A stretch of 64,000 nucleotides of DNA from Halopenitus persicus. Lineage in GTDB: Archaea > Halobacteriota > Halobacteria > Halobacteriales > Haloferacaceae. Below are positions 10,080 to 53,669 of the stretch, piece after piece (positions within the stretch are counted from its first letter, which is position 1; each line of letters opens with the position of its first letter). Location: contig NZ_AP017558.1 in NCBI RefSeq assembly GCF_002355635.1, positions 2,418,001-2,482,000 of the forward strand. Direction: 5' to 3'. The translations under genes and the position numbers were made by a program. The notes beneath the pieces were generated by a model. The model did no database searches. It was not told the DNA's origin and saw only the letters and a program-made list of their open reading frames with translations.

Positions 10080-10216
10080 ATGTCGTACTGGGTTGAAGTC
10101 GATTCCCGACGCCACCATACGGCATTTCGGACTTGATGAGCGGCCCGAAGATTCGACGCAAGTCCGTTGCATACGTGGCCACGACAACCACTACGAGTAC
10201 CGCGCTGCGTTCAGCT
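10080..10216 (+). other. Short coding remnant, unassigned
   Basis: Two short frames look protein-like but are broken. An ATG at 10080 gives 'MSYWVEVDSRRHHTAF' and then stops. Another frame gives '...IRHFGLDERPEDSTQVRC' followed by 'IRGHDNHYEYRAAFS' up to a stop at 10216. Together they may be one small gene with a frameshift. I do not recognise it, and the evidence is weak. Confidence 0.2.
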
Positions 10217-10217
10217 A

Positions 10218-10319
10218 GGACGATATCCTCCGTCCGGAGTCACTCCTCGTCGCTCGGTTCGAGTGAGACTCGTTCGACCTCGATAGCTTCGTAGTCCTGC
10301 ACGGAGGAGAGTACGTCCA
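10218..10319. repeat. 102-base direct repeat, copy A (3' end of intact vapC)
   Basis: This copy matches 13052-13153 with a single mismatch (10315 versus 13149). It covers the last 80 bases of the intact vapC at 10240-10626 plus 22 bases beyond its stop. The copies are 2834 bases apart in the same orientation, bracketing the AbrB/PIN pair, the HTH pair, the ATPase fragment and the palindromic element. Confidence 0.97.
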
Positions 10320-10626
10320 TTCCTCGCGTTTCCGCAGTCGCTGCGTGGAACGCGTCGAACGGCATCATCCCCTCGTCGTAGTAGTTGACGGCCTTCAGAA
10401 CCACCTGCTTCTCCTCCTCGTCTCGCACGGGGACGAGTTCGAGCAGGTTCGCCACCAACGGCACGTAGTCGAACTCGTAGCGTTCTCCGGCGAGGACGAG
10501 TTCGAGATACGAGAACGCCGACGTTTCGACCTCGTACTCGTCGAGTGCTTCCTCCGCAGACCCCTGCAACCAGTCGGAATCCTTGGCGAGTGCGAGTAGG
10601 AAGTCCGTCTCGACGTATACCGTCAT
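10240..10626 (-). CDS. vapC: VapC-type PIN-domain toxin
   Basis: This 128-residue PIN protein has the opening 'MTVYVETDFLLALAKDSDW' with catalytic Asp and later 'EGMMPFDAFHAATAE' with 'MDVLSSVQDY', supplying the acidic metal-binding residues. PIN toxins are ribonucleases that act on tRNA or rRNA when unrestrained. The start overlaps the stop of the upstream AbrB antitoxin gene by four bases (ATGA), the usual coupled layout. Its 3' 80 bases are duplicated at 13052-13153. It is full length and probably functional. Confidence 0.88.
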   Translation of the reverse strand: MTVYVETDFLLALAKDSDWLQGSAEEALDEYEVETSAFSYLELVLAGERYEFDYVPLVANLLELVPVRDEEEKQVVLKAVNYYDEGMMPFDAFHAATAETRGMDVLSSVQDYEAIEVERVSLEPSDEE

Positions 10627-11012: not shown

Positions 11013-11501
11013 TCACGGCGGATTCTCCGCGTTGTTGATTCCCTCAAAGGTTTCGTGGGTGTAGGCATATCGCCACCGTTGAAGTATCGCTCGTGTGACG
11101 AGGGAAGCCTCACGGACAGTAATACAGGATGGCTCAACGGGACGGCTTGGCGCGTTGGGTGGTGGATGGAAGTGCCGTTTCGGTGCGTCGGGTTTCGGGT
11201 GACAGTCGAACCGAAAATCCCGGCCCTGATCGTCCGTGTAGTGCGCGGCGTAATTCCCCGTTAGACTCCACCGTACGTCGATTCGCGCCGTTGATGCCGC
11301 TCCGACGCCGTCGGACAGTTCGATCGAAAGCGTCTGTGGATTCAATGGATCGTCCAGTGACGCTGTCTCAACCAGCGGCTCGTGATCGACGAACAGGTCT
11401 CGGATCTCGCGTAATGCCCCGGCATCGATCGGGCCGAACACCTCGGACTGGTCGGCCGGCTGGCTATCCCGAGAGCGGTCATCGTCTCCGGCGTCGGTCA
11501 T
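11013..11501 (-). CDS. Haloarchaeal protein of unknown function, coupled to an HTH regulator
   Basis: I do not assign a function to this 162-residue soluble protein. The middle and end are distinctive: 'YTDDQGRDFRFDCHPKPDAP', then 'KRHFHPPPNAPSRP', 'PSCITVREASLVTRAILQRW'. The His/Cys/Pro-rich stretch could bind metal or be a nuclease-like site, but no known catalytic pattern is complete. The ATG overlaps the stop of the upstream HTH gene by four bases (ATGA), so the two are co-translated. Proteins with this HFHPPP core, next to a similar HTH gene, are familiar to me from haloarchaeal accessory regions. Confidence 0.65.
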   Translation of the reverse strand: MTDAGDDDRSRDSQPADQSEVFGPIDAGALREIRDLFVDHEPLVETASLDDPLNPQTLSIELSDGVGAASTARIDVRWSLTGNYAAHYTDDQGRDFRFDCHPKPDAPKRHFHPPPNAPSRPVEPSCITVREASLVTRAILQRWRYAYTHETFEGINNAENPP

Positions 11502-12109
11502 ACGACGATCGAACTATCGCTGTTGCCATCGTCGTCCATATCCGTTCCAGTGAGATGGCCGGTACGACGTGCCTCACCAATAGCGAGTGCTGCCTGTGCG
11601 AGTGCGAGGTTGCGGCGAGTCGTTTGCCATTCTCTGAGAAGCGCACCAGCGTCGCTGTCGGCGTCTTCAATGTCCAGTTCCCGGGCGAGTTCTTCGGGAG
11701 ACTCAACGTCGTACTCGTCACGCCAGTCCTGTATCTTCGTCTTCATCTCGGTGATTCCTGCTGCGATCTCCTCGGGCGTCAGCTCCGCAAGCAGCGACTG
11801 TGTATGCTCGGTGATGATGGCCGTTTCCGACCGGCAGTACAGCGTTGTCTGTCCATCCTGTGATGTCGTTACTTCGCCGGCGTTCACGAGCGCTCGAAGA
11901 TGCTTTCGTGCCGTCGTCGGCGAGACACGGGCGCGGTCGGCAATCCGTGCTGCAGACATCGGATCGTAGGTCCGGCCGATGATTTCGTAGACGCGTTCGA
12001 AGGGGGTCGTCTCCTCGATCCATTCATCGACGACAACGTCGTTGACGTCACGGTGTTCGGTACCGCCATCTGGACTCGCTCGGGTGGATGGAGGTGCCTC
12101 CTCAGACAT
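11498..12109 (-). CDS. Winged-helix transcriptional regulator, haloarchaeal DUF7342-like
   Basis: This 203-residue protein has an ArsR/TrmB-like winged helix at about residues 35-105 ('AARIADRARVSPTTARKHL' as recognition region, then 'TTSQDGQTTLYCRS' as wing). A helical C-terminal half follows, with 'LTPEEIAAGITEMKTKIQDW' and 'EWQTTRRNLALAQAAL'. I believe the family is DUF7342. It overlaps the downstream HFHPPP-type gene by four bases. Three AGTATAT boxes precede the start and may be both promoter and autoregulatory sites. The layout resembles a two-gene toxin-antitoxin or stress module, which is an inference. Confidence 0.75.
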   Translation of the reverse strand: MSEEAPPSTRASPDGGTEHRDVNDVVVDEWIEETTPFERVYEIIGRTYDPMSAARIADRARVSPTTARKHLRALVNAGEVTTSQDGQTTLYCRSETAIITEHTQSLLAELTPEEIAAGITEMKTKIQDWRDEYDVESPEELARELDIEDADSDAGALLREWQTTRRNLALAQAALAIGEARRTGHLTGTDMDDDGNSDSSIVV

Positions 12110-12110
12110 G

Positions 12111-12160
12111 ATATACTAAACAACGCGAGGAGAGTATATTAATCTGTGGGGTAGTATATT
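12111..12160 (-). promoter_or_regulatory. Promoter/operator cluster with three AGTATAT boxes
   Basis: On the plus strand the boxes are 'atatact' at 12111-12117 (inverted) and 'agtatatt' at 12133-12140 and 12153-12160. The last two are spaced by exactly 20 bases. The 12133 box lies about 27 bases before the HTH start and can be its TATA element. The repeated boxes suggest binding by the HTH protein itself. Confidence 0.4.
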
Positions 12161-12248
12161 GTTCCATAATTCCACCAAACGCAGATCCGGTCATCAGTCG
12201 CGGCATCCGAAACCACTAGTCATTATCGAAATAATCATTACTTAGAGT

Positions 12249-12374
12249 ATGGCCGTTAACGATCGGAACGACGAACCCGAGGCACTCAGGTCCGCGTTTG
12301 ACTCACCTGGGTACGCATTCTTCGTCATTTACTCCCTTCTCATTTGGGCAGGCACGAGAAGTCATTTCCTATGA
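12249..12374 (+). other. Short ORF, possible truncated membrane protein N-terminus
   Basis: This 41-residue frame starts 'MAVNDRNDEPEALRSAFDSP' and runs into one hydrophobic helix ('YAFFVIYSLLIWAG') before stopping at 12374. An AT-rich promoter-like stretch with 'ATTATCGAAATAAT' precedes it. The frame is cut where ATPase-like sequence begins in another frame, so it is probably the surviving start of a gene broken by deletion. It has no recognised family. Confidence 0.3.
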
Positions 12375-12652
12375 CATAGCAGATACAATTCGTTCGTACG
12401 CGATCACCGGCGGCACGCCGATGTATCTCACTCTCTTCGACTATGAGCAATCTCTTCGCGAGAACGTCCAATCGCGTGTCTTGTCAGCAGCTGCAGTGTC
12501 GTTCAATGAACCAGAATTTCTACTTCGGGCTGAGCTACGCAATCCTGCTCGATATATGAGCATCCTCGAAACGATCGCGCTGGGGCACACAACACCGAAC
12601 GAGATCGCTGGTGCGGCGGGTATTGATCCGGGACCACTGTCGAAATATAGTA
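12322..12652 (+). pseudogene. Fragment of an archaeal AAA-type ATPase (DUF234-linked family)
   Basis: The frame reads 'FTPFSFGQAREVISYD', 'RSYAITGGTPMYLTLFDY', 'EPEFLLRAELRNPARYMSIL' and 'PNEIAGAAGIDPGPLSKY'. This is the segment just before the DUF234 domain of archaeal ATPases of about 460 residues. The P-loop half is missing upstream, and the DUF234 end is replaced by the palindromic element at 12647. Only about 105 residues of the family remain and no ATPase activity is possible. Confidence 0.8.
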
Positions 12653-13050
12653 GACATTAGAAATAATTGCTCACTTTTGGAAGCGACAGTTGGTCAAGAG
12701 CGGTATCGATCGCCGTCGTGAGTTCATCGAGCGAGTCAAAGAATCGGTTGCTCAGAGCATCCTGGAGTTGTCGCCAGCACTCTTCGACAGGATTGAGTTC
12801 CGGCGAATACGCAGGCAACGTGACGAAGGCAAGGTCGTCACGGATCTGGCGGCCCGTGACGACCTCGCTTTCGTGATACTTCCGTCATATTCGCCAGGAT
12901 TAAACCCAATCGAAGAATGCTGGAGACAACTCCAAGCAGTCCTCAGCAACCGATTCCGCGACTCACTCGACGAACTGACAACAGCGATCGACACCGCTCT
13001 TGATCAACTCTCGGCCCCAAATATGAGTAACTATTTCTAACGACTACTAT
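12647..13050. mobile_element. 404-base palindromic MITE-like element from two IS630-type transposase 3' ends
   Basis: Two 197-base arms (12647-12843 and 12854-13050) are inverted complements about a 10-base centre with no indels. I count about 45 mismatches by eye (roughly 77% identity). Each arm read outward encodes the C-terminal end of an IS630-family DDE transposase, with 'LPSYSPGLNPIEECWRQLQ' on the right and 'LPAYSPELNPVEECWRQLQ' on the left. Both end 'SNYF' plus stop (13038-13040 on plus, 12659-12657 on minus). The outer ends share 'ATAGTAG' as terminal inverted repeat. Neither arm has the N-terminal or first catalytic regions, so it is non-autonomous. It interrupts the ATPase fragment. 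Confidence 0.8.
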
Positions 13051-13051
13051 C

Positions 13052-13153
13052 GGACGATATCCTCCGTCCGGAGTCACTCCTCGTCGCTCGGTTCGAGTGA
13101 GACTCGTTCGACCTCGATAGCTTCGTAGTCCTGCACGGAGGAGAGTACATCCA
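13052..13153. repeat. 102-base direct repeat, copy B (vapC tail)
   Basis: This is the second copy of 10218-10319, beginning one base after the right end of the palindromic element. It carries only the last 26 codons of vapC plus downstream sequence and is not a gene. The abrupt join to the element suggests that recombination or transposition created this boundary. Confidence 0.95.
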
Positions 13154-13337
13154 GTGGATTCTGTTGAGTTGAACGACGTGAGCCTCGGTATCTCATAGTA
13201 CACGGGGGCCGATCCGGAGCGGAGAAATGTAGGGCGTATATTCACCGTTCGGATGTGATTTCGGCGATTTTGCCCCATTCGCTCTCATAGCCCATTCCTA
13301 ACTATTAGTGATGCTGACCATCGCTGAGGGGCACGTT

Positions 13338-14207
13338 ATGTCACCACTTCAACAAGGCGTCTCCGTCGATCCACAGCAGTACGTCCCAGCGATTCTCAGC
13401 GCGATCACGACGGTCGTGCTGTTCCTCGTCGTGTTCGTGATCCTCTATCTCCTCGGGAAGTACTTCCTGACCCGAGCAGTGGAAGGCAGCCTCAGACAGC
13501 GCGAATTCGACGAGACGCTCATTGGTCTCGCCGTCAGCGTGACCGTCGTGATTACCGCCGTCGTGGCGGTCGCGCTAGCCGCGACAGTGGCCGGATTTGG
13601 CGTCGTTCTCTCGGCATTTGCCATCTTGGCCGGGGCGCTCGCGCTCTCCGTTGGATTCGCTGCACAGGGCCTGATTGCCAACTTCGTTGCCGGTGTGTTC
13701 ATCATTCAGGATGAACCGTTCACCATCGGTGACTGGATCGAGTGGGACGGAAACAGCGGCGTCGTTCGTGAGATCCACCTGCGCGTGACGAAGTTAGATA
13801 CGTTCGATAACGAGTTACTCACCGTGCCGAACAGCGATCTTGCCAACGCTGCAGTGATCAATAACGTGGCAAACACGCAGCGGCGAGTGTCGGTTGGTTT
13901 CGGTATCGGGTATGATGATGACATTGAACGGGCGCGGAATGCCGTTCTCACAGAGGGAGCCAACATCGAGGGAGTATTGGACGAGCCCGAACCGACGGCT
14001 CCCGTCGCGGAACTGGGCGACTCAGCGGTGGTACTTTCGGGCCGGATCTGGATCGATCCGAACGAACACAGCTATGGGGCGATACGTGCCCAGTTCGTCG
14101 AAGCAGTCAAGGAGCGTTTCGATGCCGAGGGGATCGATATGCCATATCCCAATACGGAACTCTCTGGAGGGGTCGAGGTCACGAACATCGGTGAAACTGA
14201 AGGATAG
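13338..14207 (+). CDS. mscS: Small-conductance mechanosensitive channel (MscS family)
   Basis: This 289-residue membrane protein has N-terminal helices followed by the pore helix region 'LALSVGFAAQGLIANFVAGVF', the beta domain 'FTIGDWIEWDGNSGVVREI' and 'LLTVPNSDLANAAVINN'. A C-terminal alpha/beta domain completes the protein. MscS channels open on membrane tension to release solutes on hypo-osmotic shock. I start at ATG 13338 because a 'gagggg' ribosome-binding sequence lies seven bases before it; a GTG/ATG pair 9-10 codons upstream is the alternative. It lies inside the accessory island and is one of three MscS-type genes in the window. Confidence 0.88.
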   Translation: MSPLQQGVSVDPQQYVPAILSAITTVVLFLVVFVILYLLGKYFLTRAVEGSLRQREFDETLIGLAVSVTVVITAVVAVALAATVAGFGVVLSAFAILAGALALSVGFAAQGLIANFVAGVFIIQDEPFTIGDWIEWDGNSGVVREIHLRVTKLDTFDNELLTVPNSDLANAAVINNVANTQRRVSVGFGIGYDDDIERARNAVLTEGANIEGVLDEPEPTAPVAELGDSAVVLSGRIWIDPNEHSYGAIRAQFVEAVKERFDAEGIDMPYPNTELSGGVEVTNIGETEG

Positions 14208-14228
14208 CTGGAAGTTGCGTCGTTGGCT

Positions 14229-14400
14229 GGTCAACTACCCCACCCTACTTCGCTCACTCTGAGAGGTTCGCTCGTGGAGGGTGGGGCTTGTCCGTGAACT
14301 CGGCCTCGAACCCATTGGGGTAGGCGGTAAATCCGCCTTTCGGCTTCACCGTTCCGGACTTGAGGGCGAGCTGACTGTCGCCCGTCCGCCGAGACGACTG
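14229..14400 (-). ncRNA. Predicted omega-RNA (reRNA) overlapping the tnpB 3' end
   Basis: TnpB nucleases use a guide RNA made from the tnpB 3' region and the element's right end. Here CCCCACCCT (14238-14246) pairs with AGGGTGGGG (14278-14286), with an internal CTCT-G-AGAG hairpin. The stop codon of tnpB lies inside the loop. The guide would then read into the flank below about 14229, towards the mscS 3' end. The 5' limit is a guess. Confidence 0.4.
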
Positions 14401-15510
14401 TTGGCCTCGACGGACATACCGTATCCCGATGTTCTTCGCCGCGTTGTAGTCCGCGTTCGCTTCCGACCCGCACTTCACGCATCGAAAGTCGTTCCGTGAC
14501 GGACGGTTCTCGTCTGCCGTGAATCCACACTCACAACACCGCTTCGATGTGTACGCCGACCCGACTTGCTTCACCGAGATACCGACCGCTTCGGCTTTGT
14601 ACTCGACCTGTTCGTAGAGCGTTCGGAACGCCCACTTGTGACCCCACGACGCACCGGTTCGATCGCGGATGTGGGTTAGGTTCTCGAACGCGATGACGTC
14701 GCAGTCGTATCGGAGGGCTTCGTCTATCAGTGCGTTCGATGCTCGGTGAAGCACGTCGCGGACGTAGCGAAGTTCCCGACCGCTCGACTGTACGAGCGTT
14801 CGATGAGCGCTTCGTGTTCCGGCCTGTTGCAACCCGGCGCGTACCTTCTCGAACTCACGGAGTCGATGGGTTAGCTCCCGCCCGCTGAAGAAGTAGGCGG
14901 TGCTAGTGACGGCGAGGTTTTCGATACCGAGGTCAACCCCGAGAACCGTTCCGTCCTCGGCGGTGTTCCGTTCGGTATCGTTCTTGTACCGGCGGAAACC
15001 GATATGCAAGAAGAACTCGCCGTCTCGGGCGGTGAGCGTGCTTTCGGTAACACTCCATTCGTCCGAGTCAAGGTACTGTCGCTGGTAGCCATCGTCGGCA
15101 TCGGGAAGGTCGAGCGGACACCGCACCCGGCGCTCCGTCGTAGAGAGGGACACGGTATCGTCATCGAACACCGTCATCGTCCGCGTATCGTACTTCACGG
15201 TTGGCGCGGTGAACGTCGGCTTGCTGACCTTCTTGTCTTTCGCCCGGCGTTCGATACAGCCAGTGATGGCTTGTGCGGCTTGGTGAGTGGCCAGAATTGC
15301 GTGCTGACTCCCGAGGTCGGTCTCGTCGCGCACAGGATCGTAGGCAAGGGGTTGCACATCGCTCTTGGTGTTGCAGTGCCCCCACGCGAGGTCGGTGGCG
15401 ATTTGACAGCCCCGTTTCCACTCGGAGATGGTCTCTTCGAGCAGATCGCGTTGCTCGTCGTCTACCGAGAGGCGGGTGATTGCCGTCCGACGCACGTAGT
15501 CGTCTGCCAC
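14254..15510 (-). CDS. tnpB: RNA-guided endonuclease TnpB
   Basis: This 418-residue TnpB is full length. RuvC-type catalytic residues are all present: Asp193 in 'GVDLGIENLA', Glu276 in 'DVIAFENL' and Asp354 in 'NADYNAAKNIG'. A zinc ribbon uses Cys325/Cys328 and Cys344/Cys347. An arginine-rich N-terminal RNA-binding half precedes. The start is GTG at 15510, with TATAAATAG (15540-15532 on the minus strand) about 27 bases upstream, so a leaderless transcript is expected. TnpB cuts DNA at sites matched by its guide RNA and helps retain its element. No tnpA is adjacent. Confidence 0.92.
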   Translation of the reverse strand: MADDYVRRTAITRLSVDDEQRDLLEETISEWKRGCQIATDLAWGHCNTKSDVQPLAYDPVRDETDLGSQHAILATHQAAQAITGCIERRAKDKKVSKPTFTAPTVKYDTRTMTVFDDDTVSLSTTERRVRCPLDLPDADDGYQRQYLDSDEWSVTESTLTARDGEFFLHIGFRRYKNDTERNTAEDGTVLGVDLGIENLAVTSTAYFFSGRELTHRLREFEKVRAGLQQAGTRSAHRTLVQSSGRELRYVRDVLHRASNALIDEALRYDCDVIAFENLTHIRDRTGASWGHKWAFRTLYEQVEYKAEAVGISVKQVGSAYTSKRCCECGFTADENRPSRNDFRCVKCGSEANADYNAAKNIGIRYVRRGQQSSRRTGDSQLALKSGTVKPKGGFTAYPNGFEAEFTDKPHPPRANLSE

Positions 15511-52565: not shown

Positions 52566-53669
52566 TTACTGTCCGGACGTTCCGGTCGATTCGGGCTCCG
52601 GCGATCCCGCGGTCTCGGTCGGTTCGGTGGTCTCGGTCGGTTCGGTGGTCTCGGTCGGTTCGGTGGTCTCGGTCGGTTCGGTGGTCTCGGTCGGTTCGGC
52701 GGTCGCGGTCGGAGTCGCGTCCGTCTCGTCGTTCGTCGCGTCCTCGTAGCGCACGGTCGTCCCGCTGGCGACCGGTCGAATGATGTATCGGCGCCCCTGC
52801 CCGGTTCGGTTCGGCGCGAAGTCGGCGATGAAGGTCGTCCGCGTCGACTCGCGGACCTCGAACGACTGGTTGAATTTCAGCGGCGCGTTCCCGGGCGTCC
52901 GGACGTCCGCCTCCTCGCCGGTCGTCAGGGTTCCGCGCGTACTCGCGACGTCGAGCTGCAGGAACCGATACTCGCCGACCTCGACCTCGGTCTCGTCGAT
53001 GAGTTTCGTGCTCCCGTCCTGCAGCTGGACGAGGTCCGCCTCCTGCGGCTCCGCGAACTCGATGTAGCGTCGGCCGCTTCCGTCGGCGTCCCCCCCATCG
53101 TCCTCCTCGTCCGCCTCGTCCTCCTCGTCCGCCTCGCCCTCGTCGTCAGCCCCGTCCTCCTCGTCCGCCTCGTCCTCCTCGTCAGCCCCGTCCTCGTCGT
53201 CAGCCCCGTCCTCGTCATCGGGAGCCGCGGTCTCGGTTCCCTCCGGCGTCGCCGTGTCGGTCGTGGTCGGCGTCGCCGTGTCGGTCGCGGTTTCCGTTTC
53301 GGCCGGATCGTTCTCATCCGTCTCTGTTTCGTCCGCGTCGTCAGCCTCGTCCTCCTCGTCCTCTCCGTCCGACTCGTCCGTCGAGTCGGCGGGCTTGATC
53401 CAGATCCCGTCGAGCGTCACGACGAGGGACTCGAAGTCGTCGATGTCGTTGGGCTGATCGGTGACGCTCGTCGAGAGCGTTCCGTAGCGCGTGGCGTCGC
53501 CGGAGTCGGAATCAGCATCGCCGTCCCCGGATCCGCCGTCGTCCCCGGAGCCATCCCCGTTCCCGGAGCCGTTTCCGTTCCCGGACCCGCCGTTGCCGCC
53601 GGTACAGCCGGCGAACGCGCCTGCGGTTGCTGCAGCTGTAACCCCCCGAATGTATGTGCGCCTCTGCAT
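52566..53669 (-). CDS. Lipoprotein with DUF4382 domain and long acidic linker
   Basis: This 367-residue protein has a signal and lipobox in 'MQRRTYIRGVTAAATAGAFA' followed by 'GC'. A Gly/Ser/Asn/Asp stalk comes next, then a DUF4382-like beta domain ('YGTLSTSVTDQPNDIDDF', 'FESLVVTLDGIWIKPADST') that is split by about 110 residues of Glu/Asp-rich low-complexity sequence. The domain resumes at 'RRYIEFAEPQEADLVQLQ'. The tail ends in TETTEP repeats. It is a cell-surface protein; DUF4382 function is not known. Confidence 0.8.
   Translation of the reverse strand: MQRRTYIRGVTAAATAGAFAGCTGGNGGSGNGNGSGNGDGSGDDGGSGDGDADSDSGDATRYGTLSTSVTDQPNDIDDFESLVVTLDGIWIKPADSTDESDGEDEEDEADDADETETDENDPAETETATDTATPTTTDTATPEGTETAAPDDEDGADDEDGADEEDEADEEDGADDEGEADEEDEADEEDDGGDADGSGRRYIEFAEPQEADLVQLQDGSTKLIDETEVEVGEYRFLQLDVASTRGTLTTGEEADVRTPGNAPLKFNQSFEVRESTRTTFIADFAPNRTGQGRRYIIRPVASGTTVRYEDATNDETDATPTATAEPTETTEPTETTEPTETTEPTETTEPTETAGSPEPESTGTSGQ
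52621..52710 (-). repeat. In-frame tandem repeat, 18-base unit x4 plus one variant
   Basis: The unit 'ggttcggtggtctcggtc' occurs perfectly at 52621-52638, 52639-52656, 52657-52674 and 52675-52692, followed by a diverged fifth copy to 52710. It encodes TETTEP repeats at the C-terminus of the lipoprotein. Confidence 0.96.

Follow-up and report, generated by a model that had tools for sequence, protein, structure and literature searches.

Structure of the palindrome

The window (the whole stretch of Halopenitus persicus DNA that was analysed, 64,000 nucleotides) contains, between a fragment of an ATPase-like gene and a copy of the tail of a PIN-domain gene, a gap-free palindrome of 404 bp (12647-13050) with the layout 197 + 10 + 197, the arms of which are 3' ends of IS630-type insertion sequences, here assigned to lineages A and B (Table 1). 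The arms are 77% complementary, with 45 mismatches by script and no indel, which matches exactly the first-pass annotation of this DNA, where two 197-base arms about a 10-base centre without indels and about 45 differing sites had been described. Reading both arms also bore out the shared outer end ATAGTAG and the shared frame to SNYF and a stop codon. The differences were distributed 8/6/29 over the three codon positions (29 of the 43 differences in the coding part being at the third position), and among 62 codons 23 were changed synonymously and 10 non-synonymously, in keeping with their earlier description as largely synonymous. A chance origin is excluded, since the two arms are homologous coding sequences and shuffling the window 100 times gave an expectation of 0.00 for the degenerate centre pattern.

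The Pfam family DDE_3 was recovered both from a 116-aa frame over the right arm (E 4.2e-10) and from a full A copy (E 2.9e-39), and the outer 20 bases of the two arms had 0 and 1 mismatch to the IS end pattern. By its DDE_3 transposase sequence the palindrome belongs to IS630 as a remnant; a complete element would have both ends and a transposase frame, and here 3' ends only were found, the 5' halves being missing. Elsewhere in the window, a putative TnpB-like (IS605 OrfB) frame of 418 aa on the minus strand (14254-15510), named from its translation, adjoins the mscS gene, and clusters of short direct repeats are present at 52583-52742 and 53099-53213.

Table 1. Features of the palindromic locus and its flanks, in window coordinates
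Feature	Position	Strand	Description
PIN-gene tail, source copy	10218-10319	-	End of PIN-domain gene (10240-10626) plus 22 bp downstream
ATPase-like gene fragment	12218-12645	+	Internally deleted, cut at the palindrome
Left TA target dinucleotide of IS630 A	12646-12647		TATAGTAG, like the ends of other A copies
Left arm	12647-12843	-	3' end of A-lineage IS630: terminal inverted repeat and last 61 transposase codons
Junction	12833-12864		GGTCGTCACGG-ATCTGGCGGC-CCGTGACGACC, the short inverted repeat of the transposase gene
Right arm	12854-13050	+	3' end of B-lineage IS630, decayed; catalytic-domain tail of DDE_3
TC in place of the expected right-hand TA	13050-13051		Sole mismatch to the consensus end
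PIN-gene tail copy	13052-13153	-	102 bp, 101/102 identical to the source 10218-10319

Parentage and age of the arms

The host genome (3,105,937 bases, 2 contigs) contained 13 sites with this 3' end, one of them the palindrome and the other 12 full-length elements (1059 bp); the transposase of the full copies lies in two frames. Nine full-length copies made up group A and were 97.5-98.5% identical to the left arm, and three made up group B, with identities to the right arm of 86.3% (L011), 86.3% (L012) and 84.8% (L013). The nearest relative of the right arm was likewise at 86.3% among all 122 gathered loci, a total that includes one double count (L004 and L014 are one place) and into which the same record may have entered via two collections. 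In a tree of 43 rows, from which L004 was excluded and in which the ill-fitting rows L039, L040 and L043 were retained, the left arm grouped with the host A copies, at a branch length of zero, and the right arm was placed within the B group with a branch length of 0.14; the A/B split was moderately supported (89/89). At 13 sites splitting all host A copies from the 16 rows of the B clade, the left arm carried the A state throughout (13/13) and the right arm the B state at 12 and the A state at none; at 31 sites splitting host A from host B copies, the right arm read as B at 21, as A at 7 and as neither at 3. Because the AU test rejected the arms as sisters (p-AU 9.7e-05) as well as a right arm within the host A group (p 0.0024), the arms derive from two different IS630 lineages and not from one duplicated arm that has drifted apart. 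This agrees with the first-pass annotation, which had seen in the arms the tails of two diverged IS630 relatives and had argued against a simple inverted duplication.

Identical A copies at different sites suggest that the A lineage may be active. Relative to the B consensus, the right arm had 12 synonymous and 10 non-synonymous changes, against 171 and 39, respectively, for the 16 B rows pooled (Fisher p 0.010, a rough value given that the B rows are related and that the consensus was built from the same rows). This excess of amino-acid changes is as would be expected of a dead element; one B row, L030, had a similarly raised non-synonymous count (9). Private bases, counted with the ill-fitting rows L039, L040 and L043 omitted, numbered 0 of 197 in the left arm and 7 in the right arm. 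These observations are consistent with B having been already decaying, and A still fresh, when the two were joined.

The junction

Ordinary transposase genes read GGCCGTCACGG-N10-CCGTGACGACC at the place corresponding to the junction, and of 117 element 3' ends, 111 had the 7-bp repeat GTCACGG-N10-CCGTGAC without a mismatch. The earlier proposal that the arms were joined at a shared short palindrome holds in so far as a short inverted repeat is present there; however, CCGTGACGAC is no palindrome by itself but one half of a hairpin, the true centre of which is ATCTGGCGGC. Since this centre has the same sense as the right arm, the switch between the arms falls within GGTCGTCACGG. The centre is identical to that of host A copies L005, L006 and L014, and host B copies read AGCTGGCGGC; being a single-base difference, the match to the A type could be due to chance.

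The microhomology at the join is CGTCACGG (8 bp). Inverted L005 and L011 share 34 words of at least 8 bp, CGTCACGG included, and 10 of these are at least 9 bp long; with longer shared words available, the length of the microhomology does not by itself explain the site of the join, and it was rejected as the sole cause. CGTCACGG forms one half of an inverted repeat whose loop is 10 nt long; a join there automatically gives a gap-free palindrome of 197 + 10 + 197, and neither the symmetry nor the absence of a gap needs any further cause.

Flanking sequences and target site

On the left, the gene fragment was named ATPase-like from its translation, a Pfam search with the fragment having returned no family. 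A full-length paralogue of 463 aa is encoded at L049:4649-6040 (G000:C1 about 2804648-2806039), with which the fragment shares 70-73% DNA identity up to 12648, the end of A. About 420 bp of the paralogue are missing between window positions 12326 and 12334, and the right flank does not contain the final ~576 bp of this gene. The B copy L013 (L049:3421-4483, G000:C1 about 2803420-2804482) has its 3' end about 170 bp upstream of this full-length paralogue.

On the right, the palindrome is followed by the PIN-gene tail copy. The source gene carries a PIN domain (Pfam PIN, E 2.2e-07), its tail is preceded by an intact TA at 10216-10217 without an insertion, and a search for the tail found just the two copies listed in Table 1. 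These lie 2.8 kb apart in the same orientation, and the left edge of the second coincides with the IS630 end.

TA was present on both sides in 11 of the 12 full-length copies (L013 having GA on the left); at the palindrome, TA on the left is faced by TC on the right. Because the remainder of the ATPase-like gene is missing on the right and the flank after the TC is a PIN-gene tail, the two sides are not halves of one target site. Among the matches listed for 40 related genomes (query window 11480-14300, best 7 candidates per genome), each of which covered single genes only, none had the order ATPase-palindrome-mscS, and none came from a sister genome with both intact elements at the palindrome locus.

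Search for further copies

No second 404-bp copy was found in the host genome, where the palindrome is 1 of the 13 sites with a matching 3' end, nor in 170 genomes of the family, for which the best four candidates per genome of a DNA search, not exhaustive for weak matches, were scored. The joined structure was also not found in 392 genomes of the order (centre pattern with at most three mismatches) or, beyond the window, in the genome_contigs and viral_contigs collections (exact degenerate centre pattern); such pattern searches detect joins at this one point of the gene only, and the collections searched may omit records very close to the genome of the window. Out of 72,556 PLSDB records, 59 matched a piece of the query by blastn and 0 covered 80% of it. 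As a positive control, half of the centre pattern was matched by 44 of 69 loci; it occurred twice only in the five palindrome-bearing loci (L001, L044, L047, L050 and L069) and once in the other 39. Literature on IS630 together with miniature inverted-repeat elements (MITEs) in haloarchaea, or on insertion sequences in Halopenitus, was looked for and none was found.

A partial second 3' end in tandem (~85-96 bp) in 7 of the 122 loci was considered and rejected, the N between the copies marking scaffolding overlaps; at the loci concerned (L017, L025, L082, L084, L086, L126 and L133, all in draft assemblies) this artefact can be mistaken for a tandem end. A separate 144-bp fragment (L113:2723-2866) on a complete Natrinema plasmid repeats part of an IS630 3' end in direct orientation, starting ~27 bp beyond a full copy of that end; no N was present in the sequence inspected, and the arrangement is not palindromic.

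The first-pass annotation had regarded the palindrome as a MITE that could be mobilised in trans and had suggested searching haloarchaeal genomes for the same 404-base structure with other flanks, of which none was found in the collections searched. As evidence against its own proposal it had named a lack of other copies together with a neighbouring full-length match for each arm still present at the locus. Other copies were indeed not found in these collections, but at this locus there are no full-length relatives, those that exist being at other places in the genome.

Origin of the palindrome

The palindrome is probably what remains of two IS630 insertions in head-to-head orientation after an illegitimate deletion, a dead remnant of chimeric make-up. 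An A element on the minus strand would have inserted in the ATPase-like gene and a B element on the plus strand beside the PIN-gene tail, with the heads of A and B facing each other. The deletion would then have joined the A transposase gene to the B transposase gene at CGTCACGG, with both 5' halves and the intervening DNA being lost, so that two outward-facing right ends and no transposase would remain. We infer both that the deletion took place between two nearby copies and the order of its steps. In favour of such a relic, the ATPase-like gene is cut exactly at the end of A without its remainder on the other side, and the junction sits on the transposase gene's own inverted repeat. Against it stands the PIN-tail copy, for which a second event is needed: its identity to the source is 99%, whereas the adjoining right arm looks old.

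The main rival, which we consider rather unlikely, is break repair with a template switch, in which a broken end within A (in the ATPase-like gene) would have annealed at CGTCACGG to a B element on another chromosome copy. This B would have stood in the TA before the PIN tail, its 3' arm and the 102 bp of PIN tail would have been copied, and the end would finally have been ligated at 13154 to DNA of unrelated origin. A single event would thereby account for the palindrome, for the duplicated PIN tail and for the missing remainder of the ATPase-like gene. The right flank is 10218-10319 at 101/102 identity and starts exactly one target dinucleotide past the end of B, and the source reads TA|GGACG where the palindrome reads TC|GGACG, as a B inserted at 10216-10217 would leave it; the source site in the host genome is empty. 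The repair, however, requires an allele with B at 10216-10217, which is absent from the host genome, as well as a change from TA to TC. In another scenario, a template switch at the short inverted repeat within one A element would have folded it back into a perfect palindrome, and homologous recombination with a B element would later have replaced one arm and its flank. This would agree with the nearly symmetric join and with the centre base, which is of A type (ATCTGG, as in L005, L006 and L014), but it requires two events and appears quite improbable. A simple fold-back followed by divergence is excluded by the arms lying in different lineages.

A MITE carrying a right end on either side and mobilised in trans by the transposase of A would be in line with the IS end (TAGTAG...) kept at both outer ends, with terminal inverted repeats that match a presumably active element, and with nine A copies with transposase frames in the genome. 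A MITE would, however, be expected as several copies at different sites, and the palindrome occurs once, has no matched pair of TA and is flanked by two different broken genes, the remainder of one of which is missing. This reading is already largely refuted, and we regard it as very improbable. The combined proposal of a newly formed miniature element, hybrid in that its two right ends stem from different IS630 lineages, still movable by the A transposase and born of repair between chromosome copies at the transposase-gene hairpin in a polyploid archaeon, would be just as improbable. An assembly error joining two IS copies is hardly credible: IS copies are classic points of misassembly, and the seven draft loci mentioned above show gap-plus-overlap artefacts at IS ends, but the genome is in 2 contigs and no copy in it is identical to either arm (the right arm being 14% from the nearest), which means that the palindrome could not have been produced by misjoining existing copies.

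Relation to known systems

The palindrome resembles the IS630 elements of haloarchaea (PLSDB neighbours are annotated as ISNamo16 and ISNpe3) in its ends, its TA target and its DDE_3 tail, and differs from them in lacking a 5' end and a complete transposase and in consisting solely of two 3' ends placed back to back. Prokaryotic MITEs are recognised by repetition. ISMma9, an 89-bp IS630-type MITE of Methanosarcina mazei, is tabulated in PMC3852290. With IS-derived MITEs of archaea the palindrome has in common that it is short, has terminal inverted repeats and lacks a transposase; unlike them, it is single-copy, has no pair of target duplications and has ends from two lineages. Deletion scars between inverted IS copies consist of two IS remnants joined at a microhomology, with the flanking genes broken. 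The palindrome departs from the usual scar of this kind in that its join falls on an inverted repeat internal to the transposase gene, which makes the palindrome gap-free.

If it were mobile, the palindrome would show how hybrid MITEs begin. Read as an ordinary genome scar, it is mostly a worked example of how a long, diverged, gap-free palindrome that resembles a designed or mobile unit can be the scar of one illegitimate join, the source of its symmetry being a short inverted repeat within the transposase gene.
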